Shown: positions 1-63,981 of the stretch, piece by piece
Layout: each line of letters starts with the position of its first letter
Numbering within the stretch: position 1 is the stretch's first letter
Assembly: GCA_029863305.1 (NCBI GenBank)
Contig: JAOTVR010000009.1
Coordinates: forward strand, 1-64,000
DNA length: 64,000 nt
Direction of reading: 5' to 3'
From: Gammaproteobacteria bacterium
GTDB lineage: Bacteria; Pseudomonadota; Gammaproteobacteria; Steroidobacterales; Woeseiaceae
Notes under the pieces: model-generated
Told to the model about the DNA's origin: nothing
Database searches by the model: none
Seen by the model: only the letters and a program-made list of their open reading frames with translations
Program-made: the position numbers and the translations under genes

Positions 1-1268
1 GTATGAAGCCACAGCGCCTCGAGAAACTCAGTGACGCAAACTGGCGAGTCCTGAAGAAGGCACTTTCGTACTCACGCGTCACGCGCTTCAGCTCGATGGC
101 AGATTTTATCGATGCGCTTGATAGCGAATCAGCTGAAGCGATCACAGTCGACATCCCTGCGCCGCCTCGATTCAGTGAAGTGGAGAAAGGGAGCGGCCCG
201 GGCAGAGCGCTATTGGGTCTCGTCATTCTCGCTGGCCTCGGCGCGGTGGTCGCAAACAACATGGGCTGGCTTGACACGATCAAGCAACGCTATTTGCAGA
301 CTGCAGCGCCGCAGATTCTGGAGGAGCCCGCGATCGTCGGGGCCGATACGGCCGATGCACCGCAAGTCGGTACCGACGAACAACAAGCAGCTTTGCCCGA
401 ACAGGTCGTCGACGAACTACTGGTGGAGTCAGATTCGGGCGAAAACATACTGCAGCTTGATGAGCCTGTGGAAATCCCGCAGCCCGACCTTGTCGCGGTA
501 CCGCTGGTCGATTTTTCGAAACTGCCGCCACCGACCACGGAACTGCGCATTGACAGATTTGGCGGCACACCTGATTCAGTGACGGTAACATTGCGCGAAG
601 ATGGACAGCCGGTGACAGTGGATCTGGTACGCCGAGATATCGACTTTCCGCTTACATTGCGGCTCGAGGAAGTTGGCTTTAGCGGCAATCGATCGCCATG
701 GGCCGCCGGTCAGTATCAGTTTTCTGATGATGGCTACCTCGACTTTCCCGTGGGTCAAAGCCGTGCCCGCGTGACGTTGACGATGATGTCTGATCCGCTT
801 CGCGAAGCCGATCAACAATCGACCTTGCGTGTGCGCAACTCGGATTCGGCGACATCGGAACTGGCCATCATCAATGTCGTGCTCGAAGATGATGACCAGC
901 GGACCTTTGAAGAGACACTGCCGCCCAATACGGTCGCATTTGCCACGAGTCAGGTATCGGTCAACGAGCAGGATCCGGCTGTACAACTCGATATCATTCG
1001 TTTCAATCCGGACAATACGCCCCTCGTCATCGAATACAGTTTGCGTGACATTACTGCGACTCAGGGTGAAGACTATTTCGCCCCTGGCGGATTCACGATT
1101 TCGTTCGGGCCGGGTCAGCGCAGCACGAGACTGCTGATTCCGCTGGTGCAGGATTCGGAGTATGAAAACAATGAGGCGTTCAGTGTCGAGTTATCGCCCG
1201 GTACCTCTGCCGTTGATGTCGATGTATACCGCCGTGTTGCAGTCATGATCCGTGACGACGATCAATAG
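1..1268 (+). CDS. Ser/Thr protein kinase, C-terminal part (5'-truncated), with Calx-beta domains
   Basis: The reading frame is open at the window edge, so the N-terminal part, including the catalytic lobe, lies outside. Counting from the Met codon at position 3, the first ~40 residues (LSDANWRVLKKAL, then RFSSMADFIDAL) match the last helix of PknB-type kinases found in proteobacteria. A hydrophobic segment at about residues 68-85 is a single transmembrane helix. The remaining ~330 residues look extracytoplasmic: an acidic linker, then two Calx-beta-like modules at about 178-297 and 310-421. The second has the typical VNEQDP and TATQGEDY signatures, and both end in DDD. I infer a membrane receptor kinase with a beta-rich sensor. 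The kinase assignment rests only on the C-terminal tail. Confidence 0.72.
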   Translation, partial: MKPQRLEKLSDANWRVLKKALSYSRVTRFSSMADFIDALDSESAEAITVDIPAPPRFSEVEKGSGPGRALLGLVILAGLGAVVANNMGWLDTIKQRYLQTAAPQILEEPAIVGADTADAPQVGTDEQQAALPEQVVDELLVESDSGENILQLDEPVEIPQPDLVAVPLVDFSKLPPPTTELRIDRFGGTPDSVTVTLREDGQPVTVDLVRRDIDFPLTLRLEEVGFSGNRSPWAAGQYQFSDDGYLDFPVGQSRARVTLTMMSDPLREADQQSTLRVRNSDSATSELAIINVVLEDDDQRTFEETLPPNTVAFATSQVSVNEQDPAVQLDIIRFNPDNTPLVIEYSLRDITATQGEDYFAPGGFTISFGPGQRSTRLLIPLVQDSEYENNEAFSVELSPGTSAVDVDVYRRVAVMIRDDDQ

Positions 1269-60918: not shown

Positions 60919-61037
60919 GGATAACTCCCTATACTCCCGCCAAAACGTGCATGCGACACTCCAGATGGCTTTCTATGCTTGGGCAAAGGCAACGAAATGA
61001 CCGCAAGAATTGCGCGCAAACCCGGGATGCAATCCTG

Positions 61038-61490
61038 ATGCGCCGGCTGGCGCTGCTGACTGCGTGCCTGCTGTTTTCCTGGCACGGCGGGGCTGCCGGA
61101 TCAGAGGCAACGTTCGATCTGGCTGAACATGAGGGCAAGGTCGTCATCGTCGATTTCTGGGCCTCCTGGTGCGTTCCGTGCCGACGATCTTTCCCCTGGC
61201 TCAACGCCATGCACGACGCGCACGCCGACAAAGGGCTCGTCATCATCGGTGTCAATCTCGACGAGGAGCGTGCTGCCGCCGAGGAATTTCTGCGCGAGTT
61301 CCCGCCCAGCTTCCGGATTTTCTACGACACGAGCAAGGACCTGGCCAGGAAGTTCGATGTCATTGCCATGCCGAGTTCGTTTCTGATTGGACGCGATGGT
61401 GAGATTCGAAAACGCCACTATGGATTCAAGGTCAGGAAACAGGAAGAGTATGAAACAGCCATCGTCGAAGCGTTAAGCCTGTTGGAGTGA
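61038..61490 (+). CDS. Exported thioredoxin-fold protein (TlpA-like)
   Basis: 150 residues from ATG 61038: signal peptide to about residue 22 (LLTACLLFSWHGGAAG), then a thioredoxin domain with VVIVDFWASWCVPCRRSFP (active Cys45 and Cys48) and the cis-Pro in AMPSSFLIGRDG. A start further upstream (60951) would bury the signal peptide. Predicted periplasmic thiol reductase. First gene of the cassette with the DUF4266 lipoprotein (4 bp away), DUF3570 and ApbE genes. I infer that it keeps the lipoprotein's or other partner cysteines reduced. Confidence 0.88.
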   Translation: MRRLALLTACLLFSWHGGAAGSEATFDLAEHEGKVVIVDFWASWCVPCRRSFPWLNAMHDAHADKGLVIIGVNLDEERAAAEEFLREFPPSFRIFYDTSKDLARKFDVIAMPSSFLIGRDGEIRKRHYGFKVRKQEEYETAIVEALSLLE

Positions 61491-61494
61491 GTCA

Positions 61495-61716
61495 ATGCAA
61501 GTCAGATTGTTGCTAGAGGTTTTGCTGCTTGCCGGCATTGTATCGGGCTGCACGAGCATGGGCGTCGAGCCCTGGGAGCGGGATATTCTGGCCAGGGATG
61601 AGATGCAGCTAACGACGGATGCGGTTGAGGCAGCAACCGATGATCACATCTATTTCAGCAAGGAAGCCTCGAGCGGCGGCCGCGGATTCGGCGGTGGCGG
61701 CTGTGGTTGTAACTGA
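61495..61716 (+). CDS. DUF4266 lipoprotein with C-terminal Gly/Cys tail
   Basis: 73 residues. Signal peptide and lipobox VSGC (Cys19), then the DUF4266 signature VEPWERDILARDEMQ, HIYFSKEASSGGRG, and the terminal GGGGCGCN. The two tail cysteines flank a glycine at the very C-terminus, suggesting metal binding, disulfide exchange or modification (inference). Conserved partner of DUF3570 proteins as far as I recall. Function unknown. Confidence 0.85.
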   Translation: MQVRLLLEVLLLAGIVSGCTSMGVEPWERDILARDEMQLTTDAVEAATDDHIYFSKEASSGGRGFGGGGCGCN

Positions 61717-61725
61717 GGGCAGGGC

Positions 61726-63066
61726 ATGAGCAGCAAAGACCATCGTTCGATCAGTGGAGCGCTCGCTGCCGCCACCTGTACGCTGCTGGGTACAGCGACT
61801 TCCGAGCCGGTGCAGGCGCAGGACGAGCCGGGCTGGGACTTCAACACGGCCCTGCTGTATTACGCCGAGGACGACGATCGTGTCCAGGATCTCAGTCTGA
61901 ACGTCTTGTCGCGGCGGGTATTTGTGGATGATCGTTTTCTGAGCCTGGGACTCACGCTCGACGCGCTGACCGGTGCATCGCCGAACGGCGCATTGCCGCA
62001 ATCGGTTCCGCAAACGTTTACGCAACCCTCCGGAAGGAAGACCTACACGACGCCAGCGGGCGATATGCCGATTGACGACACGTTTCGCGATTCGCGAGTA
62101 GCAATCACGGCGAACTGGCAACAGCCACTGGGGCGTTTGTACGCCATCAATGTTGGCGCCAGCGCATCGGTCGAATATGACTACACACATGTCGGCCTGA
62201 ATGCCCGAATCTCGCGCGACTTCAACAAGCGCAACACCACGTTGTCTGCCGGCCTGGCTCTTGCGCAGGACAGTCTTGACCCTGTCGGTGGCGCGCCGCC
62301 CGGATTGACACAAATGCGCAATGCGGTTGATAACGACGACGGTGACGGTGACGGTGATGGCGGCAACAGCGGTCCGGATGAGAGCAAGGACATTGTCGAC
62401 TTCGTTGTCGGCGTCACACAGGTGATATCAAAGAATCTGCTCGTGCAGGTTAATTATTCCTACAGCGACGCCAGCGGCTACCTGAATGACCCTTACAAAA
62501 TACTGAGCGTTGTAGATGGCACGAGCGGGGACGCCGTGCCGATAGCACCGGTTCCAGGTGTCGACAGTCCATCGCACCTGAATTTCTATGAACATCGGCC
62601 GGATTCGCGGCGCAAGCACAGCCTCTATTCGCAGGCCAAGTACTACATGAGTGGCAAGGTCCTCGATGCGTCGTATCGCTACATGACTGACGACTGGGAA
62701 ATCGATTCACATACCGTCGATTTGCGACTCCGCTGGCCGACAGGAGAGAGTCAGTACCTCGAGCCACACCTGCGGTTCTACTCGCAGAGTGCGGCCGAGT
62801 TCTATCGGCCGCATCTGACAGACGGTGACCCATTGCCCGCCTACGCATCGGCCGACTACCGGCTGGGTGACTTTGACGCCATCACGGCCGGCTTGAAATA
62901 CGGCTGGAAGACTGGCGGGGGCAACGATATGCATGTGCGCCTGGAGCTGTATCGTCAATCGGGCAACATTGCAGCCGACCAGTTGATCGGGAATCAGCTG
63001 GATCAGGACAATTACCCGGATCTGAATGCAATCATCCTTCAATATGGTTACCAGTTCGGCAAATAG
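61726..63066 (+). CDS. DUF3570 outer-membrane beta-barrel-like protein
   Basis: 446 residues: a signal peptide ending near VQAQ (31), then alternating amphipathic strands throughout and a terminal aromatic strand (IILQYGYQF). An Asp/Gly repeat at about 204-212 (GDGDGDGG) is a possible Ca2+ loop. LDALTGASPNGA at residues 78-89 contains D-A-L-T-G-A-S, which resembles the Dx(s/t)GA(t/s) motif where ApbE attaches FMN. An ApbE-family gene is the next gene, 6 bp away. DUF3570 has no established function. I infer an outer-membrane redox or transport component. Confidence 0.85.
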   Translation: MSSKDHRSISGALAAATCTLLGTATSEPVQAQDEPGWDFNTALLYYAEDDDRVQDLSLNVLSRRVFVDDRFLSLGLTLDALTGASPNGALPQSVPQTFTQPSGRKTYTTPAGDMPIDDTFRDSRVAITANWQQPLGRLYAINVGASASVEYDYTHVGLNARISRDFNKRNTTLSAGLALAQDSLDPVGGAPPGLTQMRNAVDNDDGDGDGDGGNSGPDESKDIVDFVVGVTQVISKNLLVQVNYSYSDASGYLNDPYKILSVVDGTSGDAVPIAPVPGVDSPSHLNFYEHRPDSRRKHSLYSQAKYYMSGKVLDASYRYMTDDWEIDSHTVDLRLRWPTGESQYLEPHLRFYSQSAAEFYRPHLTDGDPLPAYASADYRLGDFDAITAGLKYGWKTGGGNDMHVRLELYRQSGNIAADQLIGNQLDQDNYPDLNAIILQYGYQFGK

Positions 63067-63072
63067 GCGCCG

Positions 63073-63981
63073 ATGAACGCTGCTCGTGCCGCGCGCGGTA
63101 TCGATGTCGCCCGGGGCGACGGCTGTTGGCGAGGACAGTTCTTTGCCATGGCGAGTCCCTGCGAAGTCCTTTGCGAGGTTGAGGATGCGGCCGAGGCGCG
63201 ACACCTGACACAGCTCGCAGCGACAGAGGCCTGGCGCATAGAGGACAAGTTCAGCCGGTATGTGCCGGGCAATGTCATCAGTCGGATCAATGAGGCCGGC
63301 GGCTCTGCCGTGTCCGTCGATACGGAAACAGCTCAGCTCATCGACTTCGCCGCCACTCTCTACGAAATCAGCGCCGGGCGCTTCGACATCACCTCCGGTG
63401 TGCTGCGGCGTGTCTGGCGTTTTGATGGTGGCGGCAAGATCCCGGGCAAGGCCGAGGTCGCAGAGGCGCTGCAGTATGTGGGCTGGGGAAAGGTCACCTG
63501 GAAAACGCCCGTGCTGCGCATGAAAAAGGGCATGGAGATCGATTTCGGCGGCATCGGCAAGGAATTCGCCGTTGATCGGGCCGCCGGGCTGGTGCGTGAA
63601 GCCAGCGCTGCAAGCTGCTTGCTCAATTTTGGTGGCGACCTCGTTGCGATCAGAAAACCCGTCTTGCGGGATGCCTGGAAGGTCGGGATCGAGGCACTCG
63701 AGTCGGCCGCAACAGACGTGCAAAAGCTCATTGACCTGAAGGTGGGTGGACTGGCAACCAGTGGCGATGCACGACGTTTCCTGATGCATGAGGGCGTTCG
63801 CTACAGCCACATCCTCGATCCACGAACCGGCTGGCCGATGCGAAATGCGCCACGATCGATCACAGTGGCCGCCGATACCTGTACGCAGGCGGGCATGCTC
63901 AGCACGCTGGCCATACTTGAAGGTGTGGCCGCAGAGTCGTTTCTGGATGCGCAAGGCGTGCGCTATTGGGCCAATCGCTGA
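63073..63981 (+). CDS. apbE: ApbE-family FAD:protein FMN transferase
   Basis: 302 residues. Family blocks are present: FFAMASPCEVLCEV, KFSRYVPGNVISRINEAG, GRFDITSGVLRRVWRF, IDFGGIGKEFAVDRAA, CLLNFGGDLVAI, GGLATSGDARRF, SHILDPRTGWPM and AADTCTQAGMLSTLA. The metal-binding Asp in the usual A-D-x-(L)-(A/S)-T segment is Gly274 here (AGMLST), so activity may differ. No signal peptide is evident, although ApbE proteins are usually exported. Last gene of the cassette, complete in the window. A partial hairpin (63981-63999) follows its stop. Confidence 0.88.
   Translation: MNAARAARGIDVARGDGCWRGQFFAMASPCEVLCEVEDAAEARHLTQLAATEAWRIEDKFSRYVPGNVISRINEAGGSAVSVDTETAQLIDFAATLYEISAGRFDITSGVLRRVWRFDGGGKIPGKAEVAEALQYVGWGKVTWKTPVLRMKKGMEIDFGGIGKEFAVDRAAGLVREASAASCLLNFGGDLVAIRKPVLRDAWKVGIEALESAATDVQKLIDLKVGGLATSGDARRFLMHEGVRYSHILDPRTGWPMRNAPRSITVAADTCTQAGMLSTLAILEGVAAESFLDAQGVRYWANR

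Follow-up and report, generated by a model that had tools for sequence, protein, structure and literature searches.

How would a predicted outer-membrane protein come by a covalent flavin when the flavin-attaching enzyme encoded beside it carries no export signal? This question is raised by a four-gene cassette on the + strand of a 64,000-nucleotide stretch (hereafter the window) of contig JAOTVR010000009.1, from a Gammaproteobacteria bacterium of the Woeseiaceae (assembly GCA_029863305.1). The cassette encodes a thioredoxin-like protein, a DUF4266 lipoprotein, a DUF3570 protein and a member of the ApbE family, which transfers flavin mononucleotide (FMN) from flavin adenine dinucleotide (FAD) to proteins; its layout, with gaps of 4, 9 and 6 bp, is as a first-pass annotation had described it. 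In the usual picture, exported proteins receive their covalent flavin in the periplasm from a secreted, lipid-anchored ApbE, and the supply of FAD in that compartment is left open. The ApbE of the window, judged from its sequence, can be said with high confidence to lack a leader, and its leaderless clade tracks full-length DUF3570 of the flavin-motif type (A-type) almost one to one, by profile score. We lean slightly towards the view that FMN is loaded onto DUF3570 in the cytoplasm, before Sec export.

Leaderless ApbEs and A-type DUF3570

The nearest in-frame stop upstream of the window ApbE is that of DUF3570, two codons ahead of the ATG. No hydrophobic N-terminus, signal peptide or lipobox was found at any of the possible starts, and the best N-terminal 11-mer has a hydrophobicity of 0.44. 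By the same rule, which takes the best hydrophobic 11-mer across every possible start, 61 leaderless ApbE rows have a median of 0.53 and a highest value of 1.91. The 38 rows of the secreted clade have a median of 2.63, and all reach at least 2.19 except L081 (1.97) and L188 (0.85), the latter having no leader that this rule could find. In a maximum-likelihood tree of these 99 rows, made by a quick method that flagged long branches, a branch with a Shimodaira-Hasegawa-like approximate likelihood ratio (SH-aLRT) support of 99 parts the 61 leaderless from the 38 secreted ApbEs. The ApbEs of L013 and L066 are identical. L200-L204 were left out of the tree, as was L083, whose ApbE is divided over two frames, likely by an assembly error; loci L001-L004, L034-L062, L145, L146 and L153-L178 were excluded from later counts because they repeat longer stretches or are off-topic.

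DUF3570 proteins split in two: the A-type carries D..[ST]GA[ST] or a closely similar motif, the B-type YYxDxxSSASIDV. Among 107 DUF3570 places, 67 are A-type, 30 B-type and 10 other. The first-pass annotation had put forward constant co-occurrence of DUF3570, DUF4266 and ApbE as a check. DUF4266 proved to be the constant partner, being present in 42 of 45 DUF3570 genomes, with DUF3570 in 42 of 42 DUF4266 genomes (185 genomes). An ApbE lies within 1.5 kb of 52/67 A-type places versus 2/30 B-type places, contig ends accounting for some missed neighbours, so that linkage to ApbE holds for the A-type and was rejected as a general rule. Since 43 of 93 DUF3570 genomes are without an A-type copy, DUF3570 does not always come with a leaderless ApbE.

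Co-occurrence was counted over Gammaproteobacteria genomes. In a first draw of 185 genomes, 22 held both A-type DUF3570 and a leaderless ApbE, 1 DUF3570 only, 2 ApbE only and 160 neither (Fisher p 3e-25, a value inflated, like all such p values here, by relatedness). A leaderless ApbE was present in 1 of the 22 genomes of this draw that hold DUF3570 without an A-type copy (G056). In 184 further genomes the counts were 27, 0, 1 and 156, with A-type taken as a PF12094 score of at least 160 bits, motifs unread, and leaderless ApbE as a profile E of 1e-50 or better, leaders unread except in G278. All 369 genomes thus give 49 with both, 1 with DUF3570 only, 3 with ApbE only and 316 with neither; here the second draw is taken to contain the first, as the listed genome handles agree, not every handle being shown. 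By score, A-type DUF3570 is widespread, occurring in 50/369 sampled species. The pair spans 36 family codes, in 14 of which one member has both genes and another neither.

These counts bear on a conventional explanation, namely ordinary periplasmic flavinylation, in which the leaderless ApbE leaves the cytoplasm by some unrecognised means or a secreted ApbE of the same genome does the work. The periplasm is where most characterised ApbEs work (PMC12052999; published sources are cited here from the portions of their text that were available), and two other ApbEs of the window's genome, on contigs C134 and C106, do carry leaders. A Sec substrate without a signal also has a precedent in SodA of Rhizobium leguminosarum (PMC5963308), a point that tells against cytoplasmic loading. 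However, A-type DUF3570 is tracked by the leaderless clade and not by secreted ApbEs (49 of 50 genomes), and the leaderless gene is no more than 500 bp from DUF3570 in 51/61 rows, a fraction biased by the fact that most of these stretches were fetched for holding DUF3570. In genomes G091 and G006 the sole PF02424 match belongs to the leaderless clade, and no secreted ApbE match is present. DUF3570 is the only ApbE substrate family seen in these two genomes, because no FMN_bind protein was found there in a search that did not extend to NqrB/RnfD and DUF2271 substrates. On this evidence we regard periplasmic flavinylation as unlikely, while still the strongest competitor of cytoplasmic loading.

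The cassette and the published clusters

The features of the cassette are as follows.

61038..61490, + strand: periplasmic thioredoxin-like protein (TlpA/ResA-like), 150 residues with an N-terminal signal peptide (open reading frame and Pfam; relatives hold the same place upstream of DUF4266)
61170..61181, + strand: redox-motif codons C45-V-P-C48 (WASWCVPC), read from the sequence
61495..61716, + strand: DUF4266 lipoprotein, 73 residues (PF14086, 3.7e-22)
61549..61551, + strand: codon of the predicted lipidated Cys19 (lipobox VSGC, read by eye)
61702..61710, + strand: DUF4266 C-terminal tail C70-G-C72 (alignment of relatives)
61726..63066, + strand: DUF3570 protein, 446 residues, signal peptide and predicted 16-stranded barrel (PF12094, 1.4e-129)
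61726..61821, + strand: DUF3570 signal peptide, its core GALAAATCTLLG weakly hydrophobic and kept among relatives (alignment)
61969..61980, + strand: flavinylation motif T82-G-A-S85 (DALTGAS), Ser85 being the predicted FMN site (motif rule of PMC12052999)
63073..63981, + strand: leaderless ApbE (FAD:protein FMN transferase family), 302 residues (PF02424, 3.8e-65)
63562..63564, + strand: ApbE Glu164 codon, Gly in 38/38 secreted-clade rows (alignment)
63892..63894, + strand: ApbE Gly274 codon, at the place of the catalytic, Mg-binding Asp (alignment)

The Pfam matches of the four proteins are far beyond chance. The thioredoxin-like protein matches Redoxin (2.4e-22), AhpC-TSA (1.8e-19) and Thioredoxin_8 (1.9e-16), the DUF4266 match covers 50 of 50 model positions, the DUF3570 match spans model positions 2-427 of 427, and ApbE scores 220.5 bits against a gathering score of 25.6. 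The thioredoxin frame is open further upstream, with an ATG at 60951, and the start at 61038 was preferred because the N-terminus from there resembles a signal peptide. We take VSGC in DUF4266 to be a lipobox by its motif, not by the score of a lipoprotein predictor. The nearest named relatives of the cassette are metagenome-assembled genomes of marine and sediment Gammaproteobacteria, several of them labelled Woeseiaceae.

Such flavinylation clusters have already been described (Méheust et al., 2021, eLife, PMC8238504). DUF3570 is found in 227 of the 285 DsbD clusters reported there, DUF4266 in 221 and a thioredoxin-like protein in 183; 316 more ApbE-DUF3570-thioredoxin-DUF4266 clusters are without DsbD. 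With high confidence, the window cassette is a member of this type. Its four genes are all adjacent, and they comprise an ApbE, a DUF3570 with an [S/T]GA[S/T] motif, a thioredoxin-like protein and a DUF4266 ending in CXC. DsbD, which marks only the DsbD subset, is not in the cassette, as in the 316. The named thioredoxin family of the published clusters is PF13899, whereas the window protein is matched by PF08534, PF00578 and PF13905. In the same study the DUF3570 of Chlorobium luteolum was flavinylated by its ApbE, ABB24423.1, at two [S/T]GA[S/T] sites; the window protein differs in having one. The flavin and redox reading of the first-pass annotation is therefore borne out by the DxxTGAS motif, the predicted barrel and the published flavinylation, and is largely not new. 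Its description of the system as extracytoplasmic takes in the ApbE, which has no leader and may not be extracytoplasmic. Twenty-five of the published clusters include the VIT1 iron transporter (PMC8238504); the metal-handling role that had been offered as an alternative gained no support from a search confined to the operon.

What is new beside the published cluster is the leaderless, Asp-less ApbE. The text of PMC8238504 makes no mention of a leaderless or Asp-less ApbE, its supplementary signal-peptide calls lying outside this comparison. Within the open-access library searched, figures, supplements and subscription papers apart, DUF3570 or DUF4266 was named only in that paper, and in the open-access text, again apart from supplements and subscription papers, we found no mention of a leaderless ApbE with an exported substrate.

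The ApbE active site

Alignment to solved ApbEs places Gly274 of the window protein on Asp285 of Vibrio cholerae ApbE and Asp301 of Listeria FmnB, the offsets in residue numbering being our own count. The Asp at this position is one of three conserved catalytic residues of ApbE (PMC12052999). Asp301 of FmnB is a ligand of both Mg ions, and activity fell sharply or was lost when the metal ligands were changed to alanine (PMC8906456; see also PMC5655446 and PMC4767422). Position 274 is Gly in 60 of the 60 leaderless rows that reach it, and in the secreted clade it is Asp in 37 and Glu in 1 of 38. Position 164 shows the converse: Glu in 61/61 leaderless rows and Gly in 38/38 secreted rows. The catalytic Ser230 and His246 are kept in all 61 leaderless rows. 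Thus, compared with the canonical secreted ApbE/FmnB proteins of V. cholerae, Treponema pallidum and Listeria, the window protein shares the PF02424 family and the catalytic Ser and His, and differs in lacking a leader and in the changes Asp to Gly and Gly to Glu. Because the catalytic, Mg-binding Asp is replaced by Gly274, its sequence assigns it to the ApbE family but not to the canonical ApbE FMN transferases.

Does this swap go with the loss of the leader or with DUF3570? A cytoplasmic ApbE is known from Klebsiella, where the enzyme likewise has no signal peptide, but its substrate, a soluble fumarate reductase, is cytoplasmic, unlike DUF3570 (PMC12052999). Comparable leaderless ApbEs encoded beside flavocytochrome c in Rahnella and Duffyella (n=2) retain Gly164 and Asp274, and a Vibrio ApbE adjoining DUF3570 has the Glu164/Gly274 pattern. 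The swap therefore goes with DUF3570, not with leader loss, and Glu164 may replace the lost Asp as the metal-binding carboxylate.

Alternatively, the leaderless protein may no longer be a usual FMN transferase and may have another role, such as that of a hydrolase or of a chaperone that binds FAD. The Gly at the catalytic position in 60/60 rows and the damage done by alanine in FmnB speak for such a change of function. It is harder to reconcile with the retention of Ser230 and His246 and with the tie of the clade to DUF3570 proteins that bear a flavin motif; the invariant Glu164 also shares its loop with a main-chain residue that binds metal, and the carboxylate may thus have moved and not vanished. 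We consider loss of the usual transferase chemistry improbable, the least favoured of the alternatives weighed here.

The predicted DUF3570 barrel and its flavin site

An AlphaFold2 model of the window DUF3570, made from 29 sequences (model m529cbe48cb8d), predicts a 16-stranded barrel with a mean predicted local distance difference test (pLDDT) value of 75.2 and a predicted template modelling score (pTM) of 0.72. It has 16 long strands, an even number, and a C-terminal aromatic residue, as is the rule for outer-membrane beta-barrels. Foldseek and VIA-align returned generic outer-membrane barrels only (Z 15-19 to BamA, FhaC and porins), and a profile search for a solved DUF3570 relative gave none at E up to 10. 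The loops on the presumed outer side have 6, 32, 2, 34, 43, 4, 27 and 18 residues and the inner turns 5, 3, 4, 2, 2, 4 and 5. By strand counting, Ser85 falls at the end of strand 3, ahead of the 32-residue loop and opposite both termini. By the usual porin rule, the side with long loops is the extracellular one. Since the loops are long on the side of Ser85, the model places this residue probably on the outer face.

Conservation was tried as proof of an outer-face flavin site and proved weak: invariant residues occupy 54/272 outer and 18/144 inner positions (p 0.076), or 29/106 and 17/111 when strands only are counted (p 0.03). The TGAS at 82-85 is the single [S/T]GA[S/T] site of the window protein, which lacks the second one known from C. 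luteolum; two sites occur in only 5 of 60 aligned DUF3570 rows. Within the barrel family, conservation is highest elsewhere, at residues 316-330 (61726 + 945..990; SYRYMTDDWEIDSHT), a short loop that the model puts on the side of Ser85 and that is a possible metal or flavin contact.

DUF4266, thioredoxin and the proposed electron route

Among 100 relatives of DUF4266, 97 end in GCGC plus one residue, 2 in CGCEQ, and 1 is frame-disturbed. The window protein, which ends GGGGCGCN, has GCGCN and so carries the CXC pair. A DsbD-like gene is present in 10/67 A-type and 0/30 B-type stretches. It follows ApbE immediately in Vibrio sp. THAF191d and in Kangiella aquimarina DSM 16071, where the gene order is Trx-DUF4266-DUF3570-ApbE-DsbD (L026). 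Because the CGC tail is near-invariant and the adjacent transmembrane partner, where present, is DsbD, the reducing direction is favoured: electrons would pass from DsbD to thioredoxin, to the CGC of DUF4266 and on to FMN.

The relay might also run in reverse, as an oxidative system that generates disulfides, with the flavin barrel drawing electrons from the CGC tail and thioredoxin in the manner of Erv-type sulfhydryl oxidases. In Erv2 a flexible C-terminal CXC pair shuttles near the flavin (PMC4019985), and a terminal CXC pair between a thioredoxin-fold protein and a flavin gives DUF4266 a similar layout. The likeness is in the way of working only: the FMN of the window cassette would be covalent on a barrel, the parts are separate polypeptides, and no homology is claimed. 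At E up to 0.001, Pfam gave the four proteins no Erv/ALR match, no dedicated test having been made. DsbD is a reductant (also PMC8238504), which makes the oxidative direction rather unlikely.

As for where the electrons go, MtrAB-type porin-cytochrome conduits work in a comparable way, in that a barrel and a redox partner move electrons across the outer membrane, and MtrB ranks 14th among the Foldseek matches. However, the cassette encodes no haem proteins, and PfeA, BamA and porins match the barrel equally well or better, so that the match to MtrB is generic.

Proposed loading before export

The proposed order of events would be as follows. The DUF3570 precursor, with its weakly hydrophobic signal peptide, would stay unfolded in the cytoplasm long enough for modification, and the leaderless ApbE of the operon would transfer FMN from FAD to Ser85 of DALTGAS. 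The flavinylated chain would then pass SecYEG and assemble as the predicted 16-stranded barrel, its flavin ending, if the porin rule applies, on the loop side. DsbD would recharge the periplasmic thioredoxin, the thioredoxin would reduce the flexible CGC tail of outer-membrane DUF4266, and the tail would hand electrons to the flavin, which would pass them to an acceptor on or beyond the outer membrane.

Transfer to an unfolded precursor is suggested because a leaderless enzyme serves an exported barrel. In E. coli, the DUF3570 of C. luteolum was flavinylated on co-expression with ApbE although it was mostly in the insoluble pellet (PMC8238504), so ApbE may accept a barrel that is not folded. 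The signal peptides of A-type DUF3570 are less hydrophobic than those of the B-type (medians 1.83, n=63, and 2.57, n=23; p 8e-9; measurable in 63/67 and 23/30 stretches). The weak A-type signals and the flavinylated pellet protein are both in keeping with loading before export. The reported opening of SecYEG, about 22 Å (PMC5963308), should let FMN through. The A-type signal core A-[TA]-A-[TS]-C-x-L-L-G is kept in many relatives, which is unusual for a signal peptide; a chaperone or the leaderless ApbE might bind to it.

Several points count against this proposal. A hydrophobicity rule, not SignalP, decided what counted as a signal peptide. The signal stretches of the two types were also found in different ways, and those of the B-type possibly include residues upstream of the true start. 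Three genomes hold a leaderless ApbE without A-type DUF3570, namely G034 (L195), G056 (L196) and G431; G034 has no DUF3570 match of any kind, and its ApbE may have a further substrate. Conversely, G052, with the motif TGPS, holds A-type DUF3570 without a leaderless ApbE. The lost catalytic Asp could mean a weak enzyme or a different role. DsbD is absent beside the window cassette, the DsbD-type gene of this genome being on another contig (C168), and is found in only 10 of the 67 A-type stretches. The survey is one of Gammaproteobacteria, and other phyla, including the tested Chlorobium pair, lie outside it.

If cytoplasmic loading is true, the match between a clade of leaderless ApbEs and an exported barrel would mean cofactor loading ahead of Sec export, the problem of FAD export would be removed for the DUF3570 system, and the catalytic Asp of ApbE would be dispensable. 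If the flavin is on the outer face, it would offer a haem-free route for electrons across the outer membrane. The complete chain, in which an ApbE remodelled by a shift of the carboxylate from Asp(274) to Glu164 loads FMN in the cytoplasm, a weak signal aids passage through SecYEG, and DsbD, thioredoxin and CGC feed an outer-face flavin in a haem-free outward conduit, is offered tentatively and as a whole stands on the doubtful side of even.

B-type DUF3570 and further observations

The window's genome carries one DUF3570 of each type. The B-type copy forms a DUF4266-DUF3570 pair at G000:C175:2867-4175 (L002/L063), whose motif reads SSAS instead of TGAS, and this 8.7 kb contig gave no match to ApbE. 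Over the 30 B-type places the motif is SSAS in 19, SGAS in 5, TSAS in 4, and TAAS and SNAS in 1 each. In 11 B-type stretches a secreted-clade ApbE lies 25 bp to 11 kb away, and there may be a looser link of B-type DUF3570 to secreted ApbE, or a second system. B-type surroundings, their gene order judged by eye, hold lipoproteins, barrel-like proteins and ExbB/ExbD-like proteins.

A plasmid search for DUF3570 beyond Proteobacteria gave three Vibrio records only. A DUF4266-DUF3570 fusion in L012 was discarded as probably an assembly error, its DUF4266 part ending in an altered frame without CGC. Genome G101 has four A-type DUF3570 copies on separate contigs (L073-L077) and one leaderless ApbE match. 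In L035, L179 and others, the DUF3570 ATG lies inside the last DUF4266 codons (GGATGCAACTGA, seen as MQL), and this overlap of start and end suggests translational coupling of the two genes.

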